From: Candidatus Heimdallarchaeota archaeon
GTDB taxonomy: Archaea > Asgardarchaeota > Heimdallarchaeia > Heimdallarchaeales > Heimdallarchaeaceae
Length of the DNA stretch: 38,604 nucleotides
Assembly: GCA_023705945.1 (NCBI GenBank)
Contig: BPTM01000167.1
Location: 1 to 38,604 of the forward strand
Direction: 5' to 3'
A program made the translations under genes and the position numbers. The number at the start of each line of letters is the position of its first letter. Positions within the stretch are counted from its first letter, which is position 1. Below, one piece after another: positions 16,482-38,604 of the stretch. The notes below the pieces were generated by a model that saw only the letters and a program-made list of their open reading frames with translations, ran no database searches and was not told where the DNA came from.

Positions 16482-17729
16482 ATGACAAAGGTCCTTCGAG
16501 TGGAGTGTATGGAGATAGATTATCACCCTAATTTAAGTATACTTTGTCATCAAGCGAAAAATCTCTATAATCGAGCAAATTTTTTGATAAAAACCTCCTT
16601 GAACAAACAGAACAATCTCCTCTATTATAATCAGCTAGATGAATTACTGAAGCGCGAAGAATGTTACCGTGCTCTCCCTGCTCAAACTGCTCAGCATACC
16701 CTCAAGCTTCTCTGCAGAAATTGGAAAGGATACTTTAATGCACTCAAAGAGTGGAAAAGCAACCCTGACAACTTTTTTGCCATGCCTAATCCACCTAGAT
16801 ATAAAAAGAAGGATGGAGAAATAGTAGCCATCTTCACTAATCAGCAAGCGAGAATAATCAATGGATGGTTGATTCTACCCAAGAAAGTGGGATATATATA
16901 CAAAACAAGACTAACGGAGCACACAGAGCTAAGAGAAGTAAGGATAGTCCCAAGAAGAGTTGGATATACGCTAGAGATTGTCTATCGGAAAGTTCTGCCT
17001 AAATTCTTGAAAAAAATGATTAGGAAAGGAGGAGTAGATTTGGGGATGGACAACCTCGCAGCCTTTGTGGATAACCTCGGAGGACAACCGATTGTTATCA
17101 AGGATGCAGGGAAAGGGATAAAATCCATAACACAGTATTATTTGAAGAAACAAAAAGAATTACAGATCCAATATGCTCAGCAGCAGAAACAACAATTAAG
17201 AGGAAAAGGCAGCCTAAGATATGGGCACGTGTACTATAAGCTTAAGGAGAAGTGGCGAAGGAAACTGAAGGATGCAATCCACAAACTCACCAGTTATCTA
17301 GTTGATTTGTGGGAGGAACGTCAGCTCCATGAAGTGATTATCGGTTACAATAAAAAGTGGAAACAAGGTGTGCACTTTTGGAAGAAGATTACCCAGATGT
17401 TTGTTACTATTCCCTTCATGAAAATTATTAACATCTTGAAATACAAAGGTGAAGAGAGGGGGATAAAGGTGGAGACCATCCCCGAAGAATTCACCTCCAA
17501 GAGCAGTTTCCTTGACAACGAATTCCCTAAAAAGCGTAAGAAGTTTAAAGGCAAAAGGATTAAACGAGGGTTATTCTCCTCAGCCCAAGGGTATCTAATC
17601 AATGCTGACGTCAATGCAGCATATAATATTCTAATCAAAAGCGATCCGAAAGCACTGCCCAAACGCAGTGTGAACGGGGTAGGAGGATACGTGATGTATC
17701 CACTCAGAGTGAGTATAGAACTGCTTTAG
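16482..17729 (+). CDS. tnpB: TnpB RNA-guided nuclease homologue (IS605 OrfB), zinc-finger-less type
   Basis: A 415-residue protein. The N-terminal REC/WED-like half has LCHQAKNLYNRANFLIK and LPAQTAQHTLKLLCRNWKGYF; the RuvC half has GVDLGMDNLAAF with Asp186 and INADVNAAYNI with Asp376. Two features depart from the textbook family. The four-cysteine zinc finger normally between RuvC-II and RuvC-III is absent; instead there is TSKSSFLDNEFPKKRKK followed by RGLFSSAQG. At the usual RuvC-II glutamate place the sequence reads IIGYNKKWKQ (residues 286-295) with Asn290; a conserved Glu pair at 335-336 (IPEEFTSK) could act instead. A subgroup with this TSK-SFLDNE pattern is known among TnpB proteins. 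TnpB proteins cut DNA next to a short motif using a guide RNA from the element's 3' end. Whether this one is active is open. Confidence 0.92.
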   Translation: MTKVLRVECMEIDYHPNLSILCHQAKNLYNRANFLIKTSLNKQNNLLYYNQLDELLKREECYRALPAQTAQHTLKLLCRNWKGYFNALKEWKSNPDNFFAMPNPPRYKKKDGEIVAIFTNQQARIINGWLILPKKVGYIYKTRLTEHTELREVRIVPRRVGYTLEIVYRKVLPKFLKKMIRKGGVDLGMDNLAAFVDNLGGQPIVIKDAGKGIKSITQYYLKKQKELQIQYAQQQKQQLRGKGSLRYGHVYYKLKEKWRRKLKDAIHKLTSYLVDLWEERQLHEVIIGYNKKWKQGVHFWKKITQMFVTIPFMKIINILKYKGEERGIKVETIPEEFTSKSSFLDNEFPKKRKKFKGKRIKRGLFSSAQGYLINADVNAAYNILIKSDPKALPKRSVNGVGGYVMYPLRVSIELL

Positions 17730-23984: not shown

Positions 23985-25025
23985 TCAGAAGAGAACTGTT
24001 AAACCAGTTACTGTAAGAATTGCTACTGCGGAAATGATAAGTATTTCAGTTGAACCTACAGCACTTGTTTGGGTTTGGATGATATTTGTAATACCTACTT
24101 TAGGATCATGTATGATTTCTGTACCTCTTGGATAACTTAGATACATTTTGTTTTCTCCTTCGCTAGTTTCTATTGGAGTAGCTTTAACAACTTGTTCTAC
24201 ACCATCAACCATTGCGGTTTCAATCCAAGAGAAGAACCCAATATAATCACCTGCTACAATCTCAACTTCTTGCTCATCAGAAGCACGTCCATCTTCTTCG
24301 TCTTCAGTCTCGTCATCGTTTTCATAATCAACTTCCATCTCAGATTCAAGTTTCACTTTGAGTGCAAGAACTGAATCAGGTTCAGTGTAATTGAAGTTGT
24401 GAATTCCAAAATCTATTTTCAACTGATTGGGGGCAACTATGACATCATTTACAACTGTAAATTCAGTAGTTACATATACAGTAGCTGAGAATACTTCATC
24501 AACTGTTTCTATTGAAAAGATGTGTACTGTATCATTTGAGATTTCTTCTGTTGTATAAACAATTGGTTTGAACTCATCGAGTTTAAGTACTTGTACTTCT
24601 TGATCAACAGAGTCATTATAAAAACCATCAGCTGAAGTGTCAATGAATTCTATTATCTCTGAAACTAATATTTTGTATTCAATCTCAGTTTCTAATGTTT
24701 CGTTATCAACCTCAAACTCAAACTTGATCATTACACCTTCATCTCTAACTTCGATTTTGACATCAAATTCATTACTTATTCCATCTGCTTCTAGAGAAGA
24801 TTCGATTTGAACCTCACTATCACTGAATTCAATTTCTACCTTGCGTCTGTTTTCATCTTCATCGTGATCCGAAATACCATCATTATCTTCGTCTTCATCA
24901 TCATCATGACTATCTCCTAAAACAGGAGTATATAGAAAAGACGAGATCACTATTATGGCCAAGAGGCCACCCAGCATTAGTTTTTGCTTGCTCATTTGTT
25001 TTGCTTTCATTTTGCTAAACTCCAT
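23985..25025 (-). CDS. acidic exported surface protein, paralogue 1
   Basis: A 346-residue protein. Residues 1-37 are a signal peptide (basic start, LMLGGLLAIIVISSFLYTPVLG). An Asp/Glu-rich stretch follows with DEDNDGISDHDEDE, a match to the thrombospondin type 3 or dockerin-like calcium loop. The body is beta-rich (DFGIHNFNYTEPDSVLALKV) with a second acidic run (DDETEDEEDGRASDEQ) near 235-250. After PRGTEIIHDPKVGI a C-terminal membrane helix ends at the last residue. It is about half identical to the protein encoded at 26102-27172, with the same landmarks in the same order. No known enzyme domain is recognised. A surface, calcium-binding structural role is inferred. Confidence 0.75.
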   Translation of the reverse strand: MEFSKMKAKQMSKQKLMLGGLLAIIVISSFLYTPVLGDSHDDDEDEDNDGISDHDEDENRRKVEIEFSDSEVQIESSLEADGISNEFDVKIEVRDEGVMIKFEFEVDNETLETEIEYKILVSEIIEFIDTSADGFYNDSVDQEVQVLKLDEFKPIVYTTEEISNDTVHIFSIETVDEVFSATVYVTTEFTVVNDVIVAPNQLKIDFGIHNFNYTEPDSVLALKVKLESEMEVDYENDDETEDEEDGRASDEQEVEIVAGDYIGFFSWIETAMVDGVEQVVKATPIETSEGENKMYLSYPRGTEIIHDPKVGITNIIQTQTSAVGSTEILIISAVAILTVTGLTVLF

Positions 25026-26101: not shown

Positions 26102-27172
26102 CTATTTTTTTCGTGTAATTAATACTAATGCTACAAGCAATCCAAGAACAGCTCCTGAAACTATTAATAGTTCATATTTTGTAACATTTGGTAATTCTAA
26201 CCAGGGAATGCCATTGAAGAGACTAGTTGTAAAATCTTGTAATATGTTTGCTATGCCTATCTTTGGATCATGTATGATCTCATCCCCCCGAGGATAGTTT
26301 AGATATAGTTTGGTCTCTTCTTCATCTGTTGTTAAAGGTGTAGCTTTGACAAGATGGTTAACGCCGTCTACCGTAACATTTTCTATCCAGCTAAAAAACC
26401 CACTGTACTCACCTAGAATTATATCTATTTCGCTTTCATCAGTAGCTCTTCCATCTTCCTCATCTTCCGTTTCCTCATCCTCTTCATATTCTACGTCCAC
26501 CTCTGACTCTAATACAATTTTAAGTGCTAGTGCCGAGTCTGGTTCAGTAAAATTGAAACCATGTATACCTACATCTATTTTAATTTGAGTAGGTGCAATT
26601 AGAATCTCATTTACTAGTGTAAATTCACTGGAGATATAAACTCCTGCAGAAAATACCCCATCTGTACTAACTATGCTCAGATGATGCACCAAGTTATTTG
26701 ATATGTTCTCAATTGTATAAACTATGTCATCAAAATCATTCAGCTCAACCTGTTGTATGAGGGTATCGATTGTCTCATAATAAAACCCATCTTCATGAAG
26801 GTCTACATACTCAACTATTTCTGAGATCTCAACTGAAAACTCTATCTCAAATTCTGAAGCATCACTTTCGTTGTCAAAAGAAAATTCGAATACCAATCCT
26901 TCACTTTCAGCTTTCATCTGAATGCTTATTTCATTTTGAATATCACTATAGTTTTGATGTGATTCTATTTGTGCTTCTGTTCCTGATACTTCTACAGAAA
27001 CCCCTCTCTCATTCTCCTCTTCCTCGTCATCATGAACTCCATCCTCATCATCATCGTCTCCGTTTGCGGTGACTGGATTGATTAAGAAAGAGGACAACAC
27101 TAATACTGTAAGTATTCCTCCCAGTAATATTTTATTCCTAGCAATCCGTTTAATTCTCATTTTGTTCACCAT
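26102..27172 (-). CDS. acidic exported surface protein, paralogue 2
   Basis: A 356-residue protein with the same plan as the 23985-25025 product: a signal peptide (KILLGGILTVLVLSSFLINP), an acidic calcium-loop-like run (DDDDEDGVHDDEEE), a beta-rich body including DVGIHGFNFTEPDSALALKI, a second acidic run (EDEETEDEEDGRATDESE), PRGDEIIHDPKIGIANI and a C-terminal membrane helix, here followed by a short basic tail (TRKK). The ATG at 27172 is taken as the start; a TTG two codons earlier is open. The wHTH-membrane regulator gene ends 167 bases upstream on the same strand. Duplication of an ancestral gene is the simplest explanation. Confidence 0.75.
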   Translation of the reverse strand: MVNKMRIKRIARNKILLGGILTVLVLSSFLINPVTANGDDDDEDGVHDDEEEENERGVSVEVSGTEAQIESHQNYSDIQNEISIQMKAESEGLVFEFSFDNESDASEFEIEFSVEISEIVEYVDLHEDGFYYETIDTLIQQVELNDFDDIVYTIENISNNLVHHLSIVSTDGVFSAGVYISSEFTLVNEILIAPTQIKIDVGIHGFNFTEPDSALALKIVLESEVDVEYEEDEETEDEEDGRATDESEIDIILGEYSGFFSWIENVTVDGVNHLVKATPLTTDEEETKLYLNYPRGDEIIHDPKIGIANILQDFTTSLFNGIPWLELPNVTKYELLIVSGAVLGLLVALVLITRKK

Positions 27173-27338
27173 TTTCAACTGAATTACTTTATAAAATAAT
27201 TCGTTAAATAGCTTAGCTTACACTCAATTATAGTATCTAATACAATCTTAAGTAGATTCTCTTATATCTTAATGTAGTTTTAACTACAAACTTCTGTAGG
27301 TTTAGATCAAATACGCTCTAATGTGATTTTTTGGTTTT

Positions 27339-28175
27339 TTAGCTTAACATCACAAAGATCAAAACAAAAACTTGAACATAAATCACAATTAATGAAATAA
27401 TTACAGATTTTTCTTTTGATAACTCTTTCAGTGAACCTATTGCTGTTGTCAAAATCAAGAAAGACCATATTTGAAAGATTCCATGTAGTATTAATAAAAC
27501 AAAAGATGGCACAATAATTGTTGTTGCACTTGTTAATCCAATGAGCCAAGAAACTAAGATGAATAGGAAAGCTGGAATGAAAACTAGCCAAGATACACCA
27601 AATATCCTAATAGTATTTCTTTTCTTCTTGTAAACAAACCTTGCAAGAATTTCAGTCAATCCTGCAGTGAATAACCAACTAGCTATCATTATAACATAAA
27701 CTAACCATAAACTAGCTTCAAAATTAACCACAAAATTACCTAAGACAATAATTCCATATGCTGAAGCAAGGTATCCAAAAACAGCAACCAAAATGAAGAA
27801 CTCTATAAAGATGTGATAAGGATTCTTCACAAAGAATGTTATGAGAGGTTCTAATGAAAATTTCCCAATACTGAAAACTTTCGGTTTTTCTTCCTCTATG
27901 ATACCATGAGGTTTAGGTTCTTCTTCTCCCTTAAACAGAGCTAAAGCTTTTTTCCCTTCATCTGTCAAACAGTATTTTTTATCCTCTCTTTGATAAACAA
28001 ATTTCTTAATTCGTCGAAGGTGATGATATAGTGGACCTGATTTTAGTTCAAATTTTGCTGTCAGCATTGTATATGTTGCTTCCTCTTCCTCCACTATATA
28101 TTCCAACATCTGACGTCTAATAGGATGCGAAAAAGCTGCGAACATCTCTGCCTTTTCTTCTATATCATCCGTCAT
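27339..28175 (-). CDS. ArsR-like winged-helix regulator fused to a membrane domain
   Basis: A 278-residue protein. Residues 1-85 are an ArsR-type wHTH (AEMFAAFSHPIRRQMLEYI, then TMLTAKFELKSGPLYHHLRRI as the helix-turn-helix, then a wing with YCLTDEGKKALALF). Residues 115-278 contain about five membrane helices. No cysteine metal site of classical ArsR proteins is seen. Such proteins are one-component regulators in which the membrane part may receive the signal. It is read toward the acidic surface-protein gene, which makes that gene a possible target (inference). Confidence 0.8.
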   Translation of the reverse strand: MTDDIEEKAEMFAAFSHPIRRQMLEYIVEEEEATYTMLTAKFELKSGPLYHHLRRIKKFVYQREDKKYCLTDEGKKALALFKGEEEPKPHGIIEEEKPKVFSIGKFSLEPLITFFVKNPYHIFIEFFILVAVFGYLASAYGIIVLGNFVVNFEASLWLVYVIMIASWLFTAGLTEILARFVYKKKRNTIRIFGVSWLVFIPAFLFILVSWLIGLTSATTIIVPSFVLLILHGIFQIWSFLILTTAIGSLKELSKEKSVIISLIVIYVQVFVLIFVMLS

Positions 28176-28236: not shown

Positions 28237-31230
28237 CTAAAGATAACTATCCAATCCTAATCTTTCTAGCTCTTCTTTATTTGGATAACCTGTTTCAAGA
28301 TTGTAATTTCTACATTCATACCATTCTTGAAGTTGTAGTTTAAGATCGGGTGTGTTTCCTTCTGTTGGACCATCCAACCTGTTTTTCATTACTCTTGGAA
28401 ATCTCTGCAATTCAGGTTTCCAACCAAGTTTTAGGTTTATGAGACGTTTGAGACCATATATCCTGTCTCCCAGTTCTATAATCTTTTCAGCATTTATTTC
28501 TTCATTCATTGCCATGCTTAATAGTTCTCCAACCATGGGGACGGGAGGGTTGTAAAATTGGCAAATTGTCATAGCATTGTATAGTTGTCTATAACTTTGC
28601 AAGCGTACCATCTGCTGTGTTATGCCTGAGTTTGCAAATCTGTCTTCAGGCAAATTGTCAACACCTATTTCTGGATATTCTATCCCTTGCTGAACTAAAT
28701 ACCCATCACCGTTGTTGTGACAAGCTCCTCTAGGGCTGGTAAGATATAGAATTGCCATACTACTAAATGCTCTTGGATCATGAAATGGTGCTTCTAAACC
28801 CGCAATTTGTGGTGCTAGTTCTAAATAGTGATACCTTTCTGCAAGTAGTTTACTACCCTCTGCTAGAAAGTTACCTATATTTTTTCTATAAGCAATCAAA
28901 TCTAGAAACTTTAGTAATGTTTCAGGATTACCAAAATCACATTCAATATCTGATGGTATGTCTTTTTCTGCAACAAATCCTTTTGAAATTAAATCTAGGA
29001 AAAGGCCTATGGTTGTTCCTGCAGATATTGTGTCCACACCATAATCATTTGCCTTGTGATTTGCAAAGGCAAGAGCTTCAAGGTTATCTATTTTGAGATT
29101 TGTTCCGAATGCTCCAAGAGTTTCATATTCAGGTCCTTTTGTTTTCTCTAATTTATATTTTCCTTCAGGAATTTCAACTACGCGACCACAACCTATAGGG
29201 CATCTATAACACGCCTTTCTTCCAACAAGAATAGTTTCAGCCATGGTTGCACCTGAAATGTTGAAAGTTCCTTCAAAGCTACTTTCTGACCAATTACGGA
29301 TGGGCATGTCCCCATACATATCAACAGCTACATCTATAAAACCAGAAGTTCCCAGTTCTCTGCTCATTTCAACAGAAAAGTCTTCTTTGATGAAATCATA
29401 TGCTTCTTGTGATTTAATCTTAAATTCGTCTGGAAGTTTGAAGGCTTTATTTGATCCTTTAACAGCTATAGCTTTCAAATTCTTTGATCCCATAACTGCT
29501 CCTAGTCCTGTTCTTCCTGCAGCTCTAGCATCGTCATTCATGATTGATGCATATCTAACTAAGTTCTCCCCTGCTTGTCCTATGCATGCGATTTTGTAAG
29601 ATTCATTGTTTAGATCTTCAAGAAGTTGTTTTTGACAATTGAATACACCCATTCCCCAATATTTTCTTGCATCAACAATTTCTATTTTATTATCTTCTAT
29701 AAGCAGATAAACAGGATTCTCTGAAGCTCCCTGTATGATTATTCCATCGTAACCCGCAAATTTAAGCTCTGGTCCAAAGAATCCTCCAGAATTTGATTCA
29801 CCCCAAAAACCCGTAAGAGGTGAACGAGAACAAATCGAGAATCGACCAGAACATGAGGTTGGTAAACCAGTCATTGGTCCTGTCATGAAAATCAATGGAT
29901 TCTCAGGAGAAAGAGGAGCTATTATTTTGTTTTTAGTTATTTTGTGATAATAAAATGCTCCTAATCCGCTACCTCCAACAAATAGCTTAGCTCCTTCAAG
30001 ATCAAGAGTTTCACTTGAAATCTCTCTAGTGGTAAGGTTTACTCGTAGAATTATTTCTCGATATCCTCCTTCAAGTTCCCCAAGCATAGCATAGAAAAGT
30101 TCCTTTAAAGCTTCATCAGATATCTCTCGAGGATTCACCAGAGACCCAGTATCGTTTAAAGCAAAATCACTAAGAAGTTGTAAATTTTCTTCCAAAACGT
30201 TTTCTGTAATTCCAAATTTTCTAAGGTTGGTCTTCAAACCAATTGAAGAGATTAATTCCTCAACTCTTTTAATTAATTCTTCTGCACCTTCTTGATTGGT
30301 TGTGAATTGAGCACCAATTGCATGAGCAATTTCAGCATAATGTTTAGCAGTATTTTCTTCTTCAGCGCAATATCTCATCATATGGGGTAAAGCTATAGCT
30401 ATCATTTCCCCATGAGGTATATTAAACAAAGCTCCTGCAGAATGTGCAAGTGCGTGTGCCCCTCCAATTTGACTGTTTCCAATTGCAATTCCGGCCATTG
30501 TAGCAGCGTTATGCATTTTCTCTCTATTTTCGATATTTTGACCATCACTAACTACTTTTGGTAGATACTCGAAAACTAGTTTTATTGCTTGCATAGCCAT
30601 GGCATCTGCAAAATCATTTTTCCATTCTATTGTATATGCCTCAATAGCGTGTGCAAGAACGTCTAAACCCGTTGATGCAGTAAGCTTTGGAGGTAGAAGG
30701 AGTGTTAAATTTGGATCAACAATGTCAATGTCAGGAATTAAATCACGGTGTCCTACACTTAGTTTTTGTTTCGTCTCTGGATCTGTGATTACAATAGCCC
30801 AATTGGCATCAGACCCAGTTCCACTTGTTGTAGGTATTGCGATAAATCTAGCTTTATTTCTTAAAGGAAGAGGGTCTTCAGGAAAAACACTATCAATACT
30901 TATGTCTGGGTTTTCATAAAACACCCAGATAGACTTGGCACAATCAATAACTGAACCTCCTCCTATTGCAACAATCCAGTCAACTTCTTCTCTTGCTGCA
31001 ATAACTGCACCCTCCTTGGCTAAAGGTATAGTTGGTTCGTAAGATGCTTCATCAAAAACAGTTATCTTAAACCCATTTTCTTCCAGCTTCTTAATTGCTT
31101 GTTGAGGAATTCCTAGCTCTAGAAGAACTTTATCAGTGACAATTAGAGCACTTTTCCCCTCTACTTGTTCTAGTTCGTCTAAAGAATCTTCCCCAAAAAC
31201 TATCAGTCGCGGAGCAGAATAAAACCACAT
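28237..31230 (-). CDS. alcohol dehydrogenase - aldehyde:ferredoxin oxidoreductase fusion
   Basis: A 997-residue single polypeptide. Residues 1-385 are a group III iron-type alcohol dehydrogenase: GGGSVIDCAKS binds NAD(P), PTTSGTGSDANW follows, and the metal ligands are Asp190, His194, His259 and His273 with FucO-like spacing. Residues 388-997 are a complete aldehyde:ferredoxin oxidoreductase: ILRVNLTTREISSETL, GRFSICSRSPLTGFWGESNS for the tungsten bis-pterin site, and [4Fe-4S] cysteines 674, 677, 681 and 890, which match Pyrococcus AOR spacing after subtracting 387. The linker is only a few residues (LEGG). Separate enzymes convert alcohol to aldehyde with NAD(P) and aldehyde to acid with ferredoxin; both sites look intact, so the fusion could pass aldehyde internally between an acid and an alcohol. 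It sits 32 bases downstream of an SCP2-like gene. A GGAAG site lies about nine bases before the ATG. Confidence 0.95.
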   Translation of the reverse strand: MWFYSAPRLIVFGEDSLDELEQVEGKSALIVTDKVLLELGIPQQAIKKLEENGFKITVFDEASYEPTIPLAKEGAVIAAREEVDWIVAIGGGSVIDCAKSIWVFYENPDISIDSVFPEDPLPLRNKARFIAIPTTSGTGSDANWAIVITDPETKQKLSVGHRDLIPDIDIVDPNLTLLLPPKLTASTGLDVLAHAIEAYTIEWKNDFADAMAMQAIKLVFEYLPKVVSDGQNIENREKMHNAATMAGIAIGNSQIGGAHALAHSAGALFNIPHGEMIAIALPHMMRYCAEEENTAKHYAEIAHAIGAQFTTNQEGAEELIKRVEELISSIGLKTNLRKFGITENVLEENLQLLSDFALNDTGSLVNPREISDEALKELFYAMLGELEGGYREIILRVNLTTREISSETLDLEGAKLFVGGSGLGAFYYHKITKNKIIAPLSPENPLIFMTGPMTGLPTSCSGRFSICSRSPLTGFWGESNSGGFFGPELKFAGYDGIIIQGASENPVYLLIEDNKIEIVDARKYWGMGVFNCQKQLLEDLNNESYKIACIGQAGENLVRYASIMNDDARAAGRTGLGAVMGSKNLKAIAVKGSNKAFKLPDEFKIKSQEAYDFIKEDFSVEMSRELGTSGFIDVAVDMYGDMPIRNWSESSFEGTFNISGATMAETILVGRKACYRCPIGCGRVVEIPEGKYKLEKTKGPEYETLGAFGTNLKIDNLEALAFANHKANDYGVDTISAGTTIGLFLDLISKGFVAEKDIPSDIECDFGNPETLLKFLDLIAYRKNIGNFLAEGSKLLAERYHYLELAPQIAGLEAPFHDPRAFSSMAILYLTSPRGACHNNGDGYLVQQGIEYPEIGVDNLPEDRFANSGITQQMVRLQSYRQLYNAMTICQFYNPPVPMVGELLSMAMNEEINAEKIIELGDRIYGLKRLINLKLGWKPELQRFPRVMKNRLDGPTEGNTPDLKLQLQEWYECRNYNLETGYPNKEELERLGLDSYL

Positions 31231-31262: not shown

Positions 31263-31673
31263 CTATAAAAATACAGTATCAACTTTCTGAGCAGAGTTAA
31301 CTAATTCCTTTGCTGCTTTTGTTGCACGCATTACTTTTCCTTTATCACCAACTAGTTTGAATTTTCTGGTAAGAATTCCTTTAATTGGATCAAGCTCTCC
31401 TCTTATAACCTTCAACCATTCAGAGTATTTTCCTATATACTGAAATTCTGTTTTTGGTGCTGGTTTGTCATCTTCTACAAGACTTACTCCTCGACAATCT
31501 CCATGCCAGAGATCTATATAATATGTTACTTCTTTATCTAATGGGCCATCAGGTTTAATTACAAATAGGAAATCGCCTTCCCATGTTTTTGCTGCTTCTT
31601 TATAAGCTGGGGAGTTGTTGAGTACCTCCTTGTATTCATCGATCCATTCCTTTGTTAGAAATTGTTTTGCCAT
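31263..31673 (-). CDS. SCP2 sterol-carrier-like protein
   Basis: A 136-residue protein matching the SCP2 fold: FLFVIKPDGPLDKEVTYYIDL, then RGELDPIKGILTRKFKLVGD as the conserved GxLxPxxAxxxGxxxxxGD part, and a C-terminal helix. The family binds hydrophobic acyl chains and lipids. The ATG at 31673 is preferred, with GTGATT six bases ahead; the GTG at 31682 is also open. It is the first gene of a likely operon with the ADH-AOR fusion. A role in holding an acyl or lipid substrate is inferred only from this position. Its promoter region, CTATATTC near 31704-31711, is shared with the divergent amidotransferase-like gene. Confidence 0.78.
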   Translation of the reverse strand: MAKQFLTKEWIDEYKEVLNNSPAYKEAAKTWEGDFLFVIKPDGPLDKEVTYYIDLWHGDCRGVSLVEDDKPAPKTEFQYIGKYSEWLKVIRGELDPIKGILTRKFKLVGDKGKVMRATKAAKELVNSAQKVDTVFL

Positions 31674-31852
31674 AATAATCACTAAATTTTTTGTACAGGT
31701 CGAATATAGTTGGAGCTAAAATAAGTTGTTTTTAAAATTTGTTTCATCATGAAAGAATATACAAACAAAAAATTCGTGGAAAGATGCAAAAGGGATTTAC
31801 GAATCAAATGGTTTATTAAAACTGCTACGTATATTTAATATGAGTAAAGATT

Positions 31853-37824: not shown

Positions 37825-37990
37825 GCAAAGTATTAAATGATGAGTTTTTGTCTTGTTGTCAGATAAAGACAACTTTAGTTGAGTGTCTTTATTAGAGGTC
37901 AACATATACAACTATAACAGTTCTATACTAACTCTGAGTGGATACATCACGTATCCTCCTACCCCGTTCACCCTGCGTTTAGGCAAGGCT
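37825..37990 (-). ncRNA. predicted omega (guide) RNA scaffold of tnpB copy 2
   Basis: On the minus strand the hairpin GGATAC-GTGAT-GTATCC (37940-37956) is identical to copy 1. After the stop, GTTGTC-TTTATCT-GACAAC (37855-37873) takes the place of the second hairpin of copy 1 with different bases and a preserved stem. Sequence beyond about CATCAT (near 37836-37842) diverges, consistent with a locus-specific guide. Limits are inferred. Confidence 0.45.
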
Positions 37991-38604
37991 TTCGGATCGC
38001 TTTTGAGTAAAATATTGTATGCAGCATTGACATCAGCGTTAATGAGATGCCCTTGAGCGGATCTAAACAACCCTCGAGTCACTCTACGACCAGCATACTT
38101 TTTCCTGGCTTGGGGGAATTCATTATCTAGGAAACTACACTTGGAAGTATATTTTTCGGGAATCATCTCTACCTTTATCCCTCGTTCTGCTCCTTTATAC
38201 TTTAAGATGTTGATGATACGTAGAAAGGGTATAGTGACAAACATCTGGGTGATCTTCTTCCAGAATTGCACCCCTTGTTTCCACTTCTCATTGTAGCCGA
38301 TGATGACCTCGTGTAACCCTCTTTCCACCCACAAGTCAAGTAAATAGCAAGTGAGCTTGTGGATAGCATCTTTCAGTTTCCTCCTCCACTTTTCTCGAAG
38401 TTTGTAGTAAGTATGGCCATATCTGAGCTTGCTTTTTCCTTTTAGTTGTTGTCTTTGCTGTTGAGCATATTGTATCTGTAATTGTTTCTGTCTTTTCAAA
38501 TAATATTGTGTTATGGATTTTATTCCTTTCCCTGCATCTTTGATAACAATCGGTTGCCCACCGAGGTTATCCACAAAGGTGGCAAGGTTGATCATCCCTA
38601 AATC
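37912..38604 (-). CDS. tnpB: TnpB homologue, copy 2 (5' part beyond window)
   Basis: The last 230 residues of a second TnpB; the frame stays open to the window edge at 38604 (its first residues are DLGMINLATFVDN). It is close to copy 1 but not identical (for example GMIN for GMDN and GYNEKWKQ for GYNKKWKQ). It shares the missing zinc finger (TSKCSFLDNEFPQARKK), the Glu pair region (IPEKYTSK has one Glu and one Lys where copy 1 has two Glu), and INADVNAAYNI. The last 60 bases of the gene are nearly unchanged between the copies. GC content is higher than that of its neighbours. Confidence 0.9.
   Translation of the reverse strand, partial: DLGMINLATFVDNLGGQPIVIKDAGKGIKSITQYYLKRQKQLQIQYAQQQRQQLKGKSKLRYGHTYYKLREKWRRKLKDAIHKLTCYLLDLWVERGLHEVIIGYNEKWKQGVQFWKKITQMFVTIPFLRIINILKYKGAERGIKVEMIPEKYTSKCSFLDNEFPQARKKYAGRRVTRGLFRSAQGHLINADVNAAYNILLKSDPKALPKRRVNGVGGYVMYPLRVSIELL

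Follow-up and report, generated by a model that had tools for sequence, protein, structure and literature searches.

A gene joining an iron-type alcohol dehydrogenase to a tungsten-type aldehyde:ferredoxin oxidoreductase in one genus of Heimdallarchaeota

In the window analyzed here, the 38,604-nucleotide stretch of contig BPTM01000167.1 from a Candidatus Heimdallarchaeota archaeon, one reading frame encodes an alcohol dehydrogenase (ADH) followed by an aldehyde:ferredoxin oxidoreductase (AOR), which raises the question of whether this is a genuine two-part enzyme, how it arose and what it does. The plus strand at 28237-31230 contains many stops and the 997-codon frame is open on the minus strand only; the probability of finding no stop in 997 random codons of the same composition is ~ 3e-34. 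The gene and the residues discussed below are located at the following positions.

28237..31230, minus strand: fused ADH-AOR gene, 997 amino acids, with its ATG at 31228-31230 and its stop at 28237-28239
30082..31230, minus strand: Fe-type (group III) alcohol dehydrogenase half, residues 1-383, from Pfam and structure matches
28240..30069, minus strand: tungsten-type aldehyde:ferredoxin oxidoreductase half, residues 388-997 (PF02730, PF01314)
30055..30087, minus strand: junction, residues 382-392, MLGELEGGYRE
30412..30663, minus strand: ADH metal ligands D190, H194, H259 and H273, from an alignment of 28 sequences
29188..29211, minus strand: 4Fe-4S ligands C674, C677 and C681 (CYRCPIGC)
28561-28563, minus strand: fourth 4Fe-4S ligand, C890
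28717..29124, minus strand: active-site residues E703 (29122-29124) and H838 (28717-28719), aligned with the Pyrococcus furiosus AOR

All four Pfam domains were matched above their cut-offs and over nearly their full length, with Fe-ADH (PF00465) at residues 7-173 and ADH_Fe_C (PF25137) at 184-381 in the ADH half, and AFOR_N (PF02730; 394-592, 261.5 bits) and AFOR_C (PF01314; 608-993, 331.3 bits) above the curated cut-offs in the AOR half. The Pfam stretches 7-381 and 394-993 bracket a join of about six residues, residues 379-392 reading ...FYAM-LGELE-GGYRE.... The ADH half has the sequence features of the group III enzymes, namely the N- and C-terminal Fe-ADH domains, an Asp-His-His-His metal site and the GGGS nucleotide motif. 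In the AOR half, E703 and H838 correspond in the alignment to E313 and H448 of the P. furiosus AOR, and these two residues, the four ADH metal ligands and the four cluster cysteines were all invariant among 28 fused or paired relatives. A first-pass annotation, made from the sequence alone, had described a 997-codon frame holding a complete Fe-type ADH and a complete AOR, a linker of a few residues near residue 386, and the eight metal and cluster ligands; the domain boundaries and the alignment agree with it on each of these points. It did not name the strand, which is the minus strand. An AlphaFold monomer model of the fusion, built from a 28-row alignment, had a mean pLDDT of 90.2 and a pTM of 0.77, and the predicted fold of each half appears sound, with the mutual placement of the halves less certain at that pTM. 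The modeled AOR half superposed on 9mqx, 1aor and 9g7j with a TM score of 0.94 of the target, while the ADH half gave 0.88 of the target with the ADH domain of AdhE in 3zdr, 0.90-0.91 with that in 6scg, and 0.93-0.94 with Bacillus methanol dehydrogenase. The solved structures nearest to the ADH half were the ADH domains of AdhE, 3zdr and 6scg, and those nearest to the AOR half were 9mqx and 1aor.

The same junction was then found in related genomes, a check that had been proposed in the first-pass annotation. Of the 21 genomes of the genus, 11 contain copies that extend across the junction, 12 in all, and 12/12 are a single fused frame, with two further genomes carrying only fragments of the gene at contig ends. 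The codons at the join vary between species of the genus and the frame stays open. Several independent studies have also produced public records with the fused frame, under the names Candidatus Heimdallarchaeota or Asgard group archaeon. When the window was compared to a 92%-identical copy (L038), dN and dS were 0.038 and 0.61 in the ADH half and 0.043 and 0.58 in the AOR half (dN/dS ~ 0.06-0.07 in each), values that indicate strong purifying selection on each of the two. Each catalytic half is complete and conserved, and within the genus the join has become fixed. G016, a genome of this genus, carries two different fused copies, L040 and L039, 74% and 78% identical to the window.

Outside the genus, the two enzymes are encoded by neighboring genes. 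In a locus from another genus of the same family (L043, genome G021), the ADH gene ends in ATG TTT TAG, with an in-frame GTG immediately behind it, giving MF-stop(TAG)-VVPISGYRG at the junction position, and in a locus from another family (L037, genome G041), the two genes lie in frame across an 18-bp gap. The order of ADH then AOR, as separate genes, is common to Thorarchaeota, Baldrarchaeota, Archaeoglobi, Bathyarchaeota and Chloroflexota, and the gap is 60 bp or less in 39 of 58 split pairs. Some collinear matches outside the genus are interrupted by in-frame stops and others have the two genes in different frames. No fusion outside the genus was found among 228 Asgard genomes, where every collinear match from beyond the genus had at least one in-frame stop, confirmed as lying at the join for a subset of loci including L043 and L037. 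Recoded stops would turn split pairs into hidden fusions, and pyrrolysine recoding in Asgards has been reported as restricted to Sifarchaeia (PMC9723677). Likewise, none was found in about 1,090 sampled genomes of other phyla (~ 400 from the Chloroflexota phylum, 398 from the Bathyarchaeota phylum and 295 from the Archaeoglobus phylum) in a search with E-value limits of 1e-140 to 1e-160, which distant or reversed fusions would escape. Two groups of long frames were considered as further fusions and rejected as read-throughs of stops: other Asgard "open frames" of 1000-1100 amino acids, and frames of 1231-1237 amino acids in L035, L036 and G086, the first two of which were checked and are two genes. 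L035 and L036 represent a second, distant ADH-AOR neighbor pair in which the two separate genes have long extensions (436 and 786 amino acids).

In the AOR tree, the fused copies form one clade (98), joined by the split pair L043 (99) and on the next branch by L037 together with AORs from another family that lack an adjoining ADH (100). The ADH tree agrees except for L051, a row with only half of the columns. A single stop-codon loss in the genus ancestor would account for a fused clade beside a split sister pair. At the nucleotide level, the ATG TTA GGT GAA found at the join in several species resembles what a two-base deletion would leave of ATG TTT TAG GTG.

We consider it probable that the gene encodes one bifunctional polypeptide, which arose once in the genus ancestor by stop loss and serves as a coenzyme A-free, SCP2-linked converter between alcohol and acid. 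The stop codon between two already cooperating neighbors, ADH then AOR, would have been lost in the ancestor of this Heimdall genus. As judged from their families, the N-terminal half would use NAD(H) to interconvert alcohol and aldehyde, and the C-terminal half would use ferredoxin and a tungsten-pterin/4Fe-4S site to interconvert aldehyde and carboxylic acid, so that the fusion could run in either direction between alcohol and acid with no need for coenzyme A and tie the NAD(H) pool to the ferredoxin pool. The tether would confine the reactive aldehyde to the vicinity of the enzyme and fix the two activities at a 1:1 ratio; direct substrate channeling between the halves is a guess. It is also possible, if doubtful, that the tether fixes expression at 1:1 and does nothing else, the stop loss having been neutral or mildly useful and the product acting as two independent enzymes in aldehyde detoxification. 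Everywhere else the two enzymes come from separate genes and function as such, the short linker varies in sequence, and AOR is a known aldehyde scavenger (PMC10816221), whereas the gene is fused throughout the genus and 0/12 copies have reverted. Purifying selection does not discriminate here, as conservation and low dN/dS fit mere linkage and a functional tether alike.

The neighboring genes, of which two directly flank the fusion, bear on the substrate and direction of a bifunctional converter.

31263..31682, minus strand: SCP2-family (sterol-carrier type) small protein, 139 amino acids, 32 bp upstream of the fusion
27339..28175, minus strand: possible regulator downstream of the fusion, with a weak winged-helix match at the N-terminus and a membrane region at the C-terminus

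The upstream protein matched PF02036 with 37.6 bits against a cut-off of 21.3 (E 3e-9) and the Thermus SCP2 structure 2cx7 with an E-value of 2.7e-18. An SCP2 gene lies directly before the fused gene and before the ADH-AOR pairs of L043 and L037, and it is kept beside AOR in relatives without an adjoining ADH. Across 69 testable loci, mostly from other phyla with a few from the window's own genus, 58 had SCP2 upstream of ADH in the same orientation, with the two genes within 200 bp of each other in 39, and this upstream association with ADH-AOR is conserved across Asgard archaea, Archaeoglobi, Bathyarchaeota and Chloroflexota (loci L035-L133). No SCP2 match was found near the distant pair of L035 and L036, and SCP2 also precedes some ADH-only or AOR-only loci. 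SCP2 is therefore a conserved third member of the ADH-AOR cluster, one that the first-pass annotation did not include, and it probably delivers or buffers a hydrophobic substrate, whether medium or long-chain or isoprenoid. A group of AMP-binding (acyl-CoA-synthetase-like) genes, of which three were checked against Pfam, is represented in 11 of the compared loci; its members lie directly behind AOR in several Chloroflexota and adjoin ADH in two Bathyarchaeota. In the window's genus, the neighborhood comparison found no acyl-CoA-ligase-type gene adjoining the fused gene. An FrhB/FdhB-type gene follows in five of the compared loci.

Since SCP2 lies upstream and AMP-binding genes flank the module in relatives, the gene context appears to favor hydrophobic substrates and, weakly, oxidation over reduction. 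The context in relatives is what would be expected for a route from hydrophobic alcohol to aldehyde to acid to acyl-CoA. We consider net oxidation of alcohol or aldehyde somewhat likelier than acid reduction, and there is precedent for it in Desulfofundulus kuznetsovii, where a neighboring ADH/AOR pair dominates growth on methanol (PMC10907483).

Other genes near the module were also recorded. The possible regulator is encoded after the fusion in 10 loci of the genus and was not found after ADH-AOR outside it. Further downstream, 23985-25025 and 26102-27178 (both minus strand) encode two related exported acidic proteins, for which no Pfam family was found (26102-27178 tested), and each of ten fused loci of the genus has at least one homologue. 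Elsewhere in the window, 16482-17729 (plus strand) and 37912-38595 (minus strand) encode a pair of closely similar proteins resembling IS605-type TnpB, one of which, at the window edge, is incomplete.

The opposite direction would make the fusion a coenzyme A-independent analogue of AdhE run reductively, with acids converted to alcohols as a sink for ferredoxin and NADH electrons, the aldehyde channeled and the protein perhaps assembled in spirosome-like filaments, given that both partner families form homodimers. This version we regard as unlikely. In its favor, the ADH half is nearest to the ADH half of AdhE, and no CoA-dependent AdhE over the family cut-off was found in the genus. In Thermoanaerobacter, an AOR-ADH pathway reduces acids, and removal of acetaldehyde with AdhE doubled acetate reduction (PMC10816221). 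Against it, acid reduction requires ferredoxin near -520 to -560 mV (PMC10816221), the ligase neighbors in relatives suggest acid as the product, and AdhE has the opposite domain order. The idea of a coenzyme A-independent AdhE counterpart, put forward in the first-pass annotation, is nevertheless plausible: the conserved fusion, the AdhE-type ADH half and the lack of an AdhE over cut-off in the genus speak for it, whereas it gave no preference to the oxidative reading, which the neighborhoods of relatives somewhat favor.

The single-polypeptide reading would be altered if the AOR half were also made separately from an internal start at M382, which is invariant in the fused copies. This is very improbable, as M382 also belongs to the ADH in L043 and L037, where the genes are split (MF-stop), and inspection by eye revealed neither a conserved ribosome-binding site before it nor another conserved start codon near the join. 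Finally, an assembly or gene-calling artefact that missed a stop was considered, given that all sequences are draft metagenome bins and a neighboring genus has a single in-frame TAG at the join, and was rejected as practically impossible, since one open frame persists at 12 junctions in 11 genomes despite differing codons and the named records with the fusion stem from different studies.

The bifunctional reading depends on a pterin cofactor for the AOR half, and here the genus presents a puzzle. MoaC (PF01967) and the MoaA C-terminal domain (PF06463) were each found in 0/21 genomes of the genus and in 11/14 control genomes, moaA-like matches in the genus being far under the cut-off, even as each genome of the genus has several AOR homologues. 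Incomplete bins cannot explain so uniform an absence; the genus may import the cofactor or a precursor, may produce it by another route, or may have MoaC and MoaA homologues that diverge too far for the models to recognize. The AOR half might lack its cofactor or rely on a salvaged one, and the claim of a working tungsten site is weakened because no recognizable MoaC or MoaA C-terminal domain was found in the genus. In many genomes of the genus, a radical-SAM gene of ~ 435-489 amino acids, distantly MoaA-like, lies a few kb from an AOR (for example L164-L167, G012:C128, G018:C175 and G014:C417) and possibly encodes a cofactor-modifying enzyme. In the Dehalococcoidia loci L112 and L117, a ThiF-family gene (the family confirmed in L112 only) and a small MoaD/ThiS-looking gene without a Pfam match lie just upstream of an SCP2-ADH-AOR-ligase cluster, which would be fitting for a pterin enzyme. 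A fuller picture, which we put forward tentatively and think improbable as a whole, is a tethered counterpart of AdhE that needs no coenzyme A, a single tungsten/iron enzyme that interconverts hydrophobic alcohols and carboxylic acids via an aldehyde held in the protein, with a dedicated SCP2 feed and a tungstopterin that comes from salvage or a non-canonical route.

The ADH-AOR pair is old and widespread across many phyla and the partnership of the enzymes was already known; what is new is the covalent join, which is confined to one genus. As the first-pass annotation had supposed, no description of a natural AOR-ADH fusion was found in the open-access papers searched, which leaves room for an earlier mention elsewhere. 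New domain fusions of molybdoproteins have been listed for the DMSOR, SO and XO families only, with none for AOR (PMC6147048). AORs are described as the only known enzymes that reduce non-activated acids (PMC9295118). The fusion provides a natural test case for an alcohol-to-acid converter without coenzyme A. Cascades of AOR and ADH are wanted for making alcohols from acids, and the natural fusion is a ready-made 1:1 module in which channeling is directly testable, with the split enzymes of the sister genus as the comparison. The wider SCP2-ADH-AOR cluster suggests that a route for hydrophobic alcohols or aldehydes has been overlooked in Asgard archaea, Archaeoglobi, Bathyarchaeota and Chloroflexota, and that organisms with several AORs seem to lack pterin synthesis is a testable puzzle in itself.

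Among known systems, AdhE (PRK13805; PDB 3zdr, 6scg, 6ahc) likewise tethers an Fe-ADH of the same subfamily to an aldehyde-handling enzyme with the aldehyde as the shared intermediate. In AdhE, the partner is an N-terminal, CoA-dependent NAD aldehyde dehydrogenase, whereas in the fusion it is a C-terminal, ferredoxin-type tungsten AOR that involves no CoA. Only the ADH part of PRK13805 (458-862) aligned with the fusion, at 320 bits against a cut-off of 951, and AdhE proper was rejected as an identity for it, with the CoA-acylating aldehyde dehydrogenase domain absent and the domain order reversed. The likeness would be a functional one, and is made stronger by the AdhE-type ADH half together with the lack of AdhE over cut-off in the genus. 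The solved AORs (P. furiosus 1aor, Clostridium autoethanogenum 9g7j, Aromatoleum aromaticum 8c0z and the bifurcating 9mqx) have the same full fold (TM 0.91-0.94) and share the four cluster cysteines and the E313/H448 equivalents with the fusion, but they are separate polypeptides, some with extra electron-transfer subunits, whereas the fusion has an ADH in place of the free N-terminus. The AOR-ADH pathways of Thermoanaerobacter X514 and D. kuznetsovii place the same two activities in series as two proteins (PMC10907483, PMC10816221), and the adjoining D. kuznetsovii genes have AOR upstream of ADH, the reverse of the order in the fusion module (PMC10907483). Closest of all in arrangement are the SCP2-ADH-AOR clusters of Thorarchaeota, Archaeoglobi, Bathyarchaeota and Chloroflexota, which are orthologous and have the same order with SCP2 upstream, but in each of which a stop codon parts ADH from AOR.
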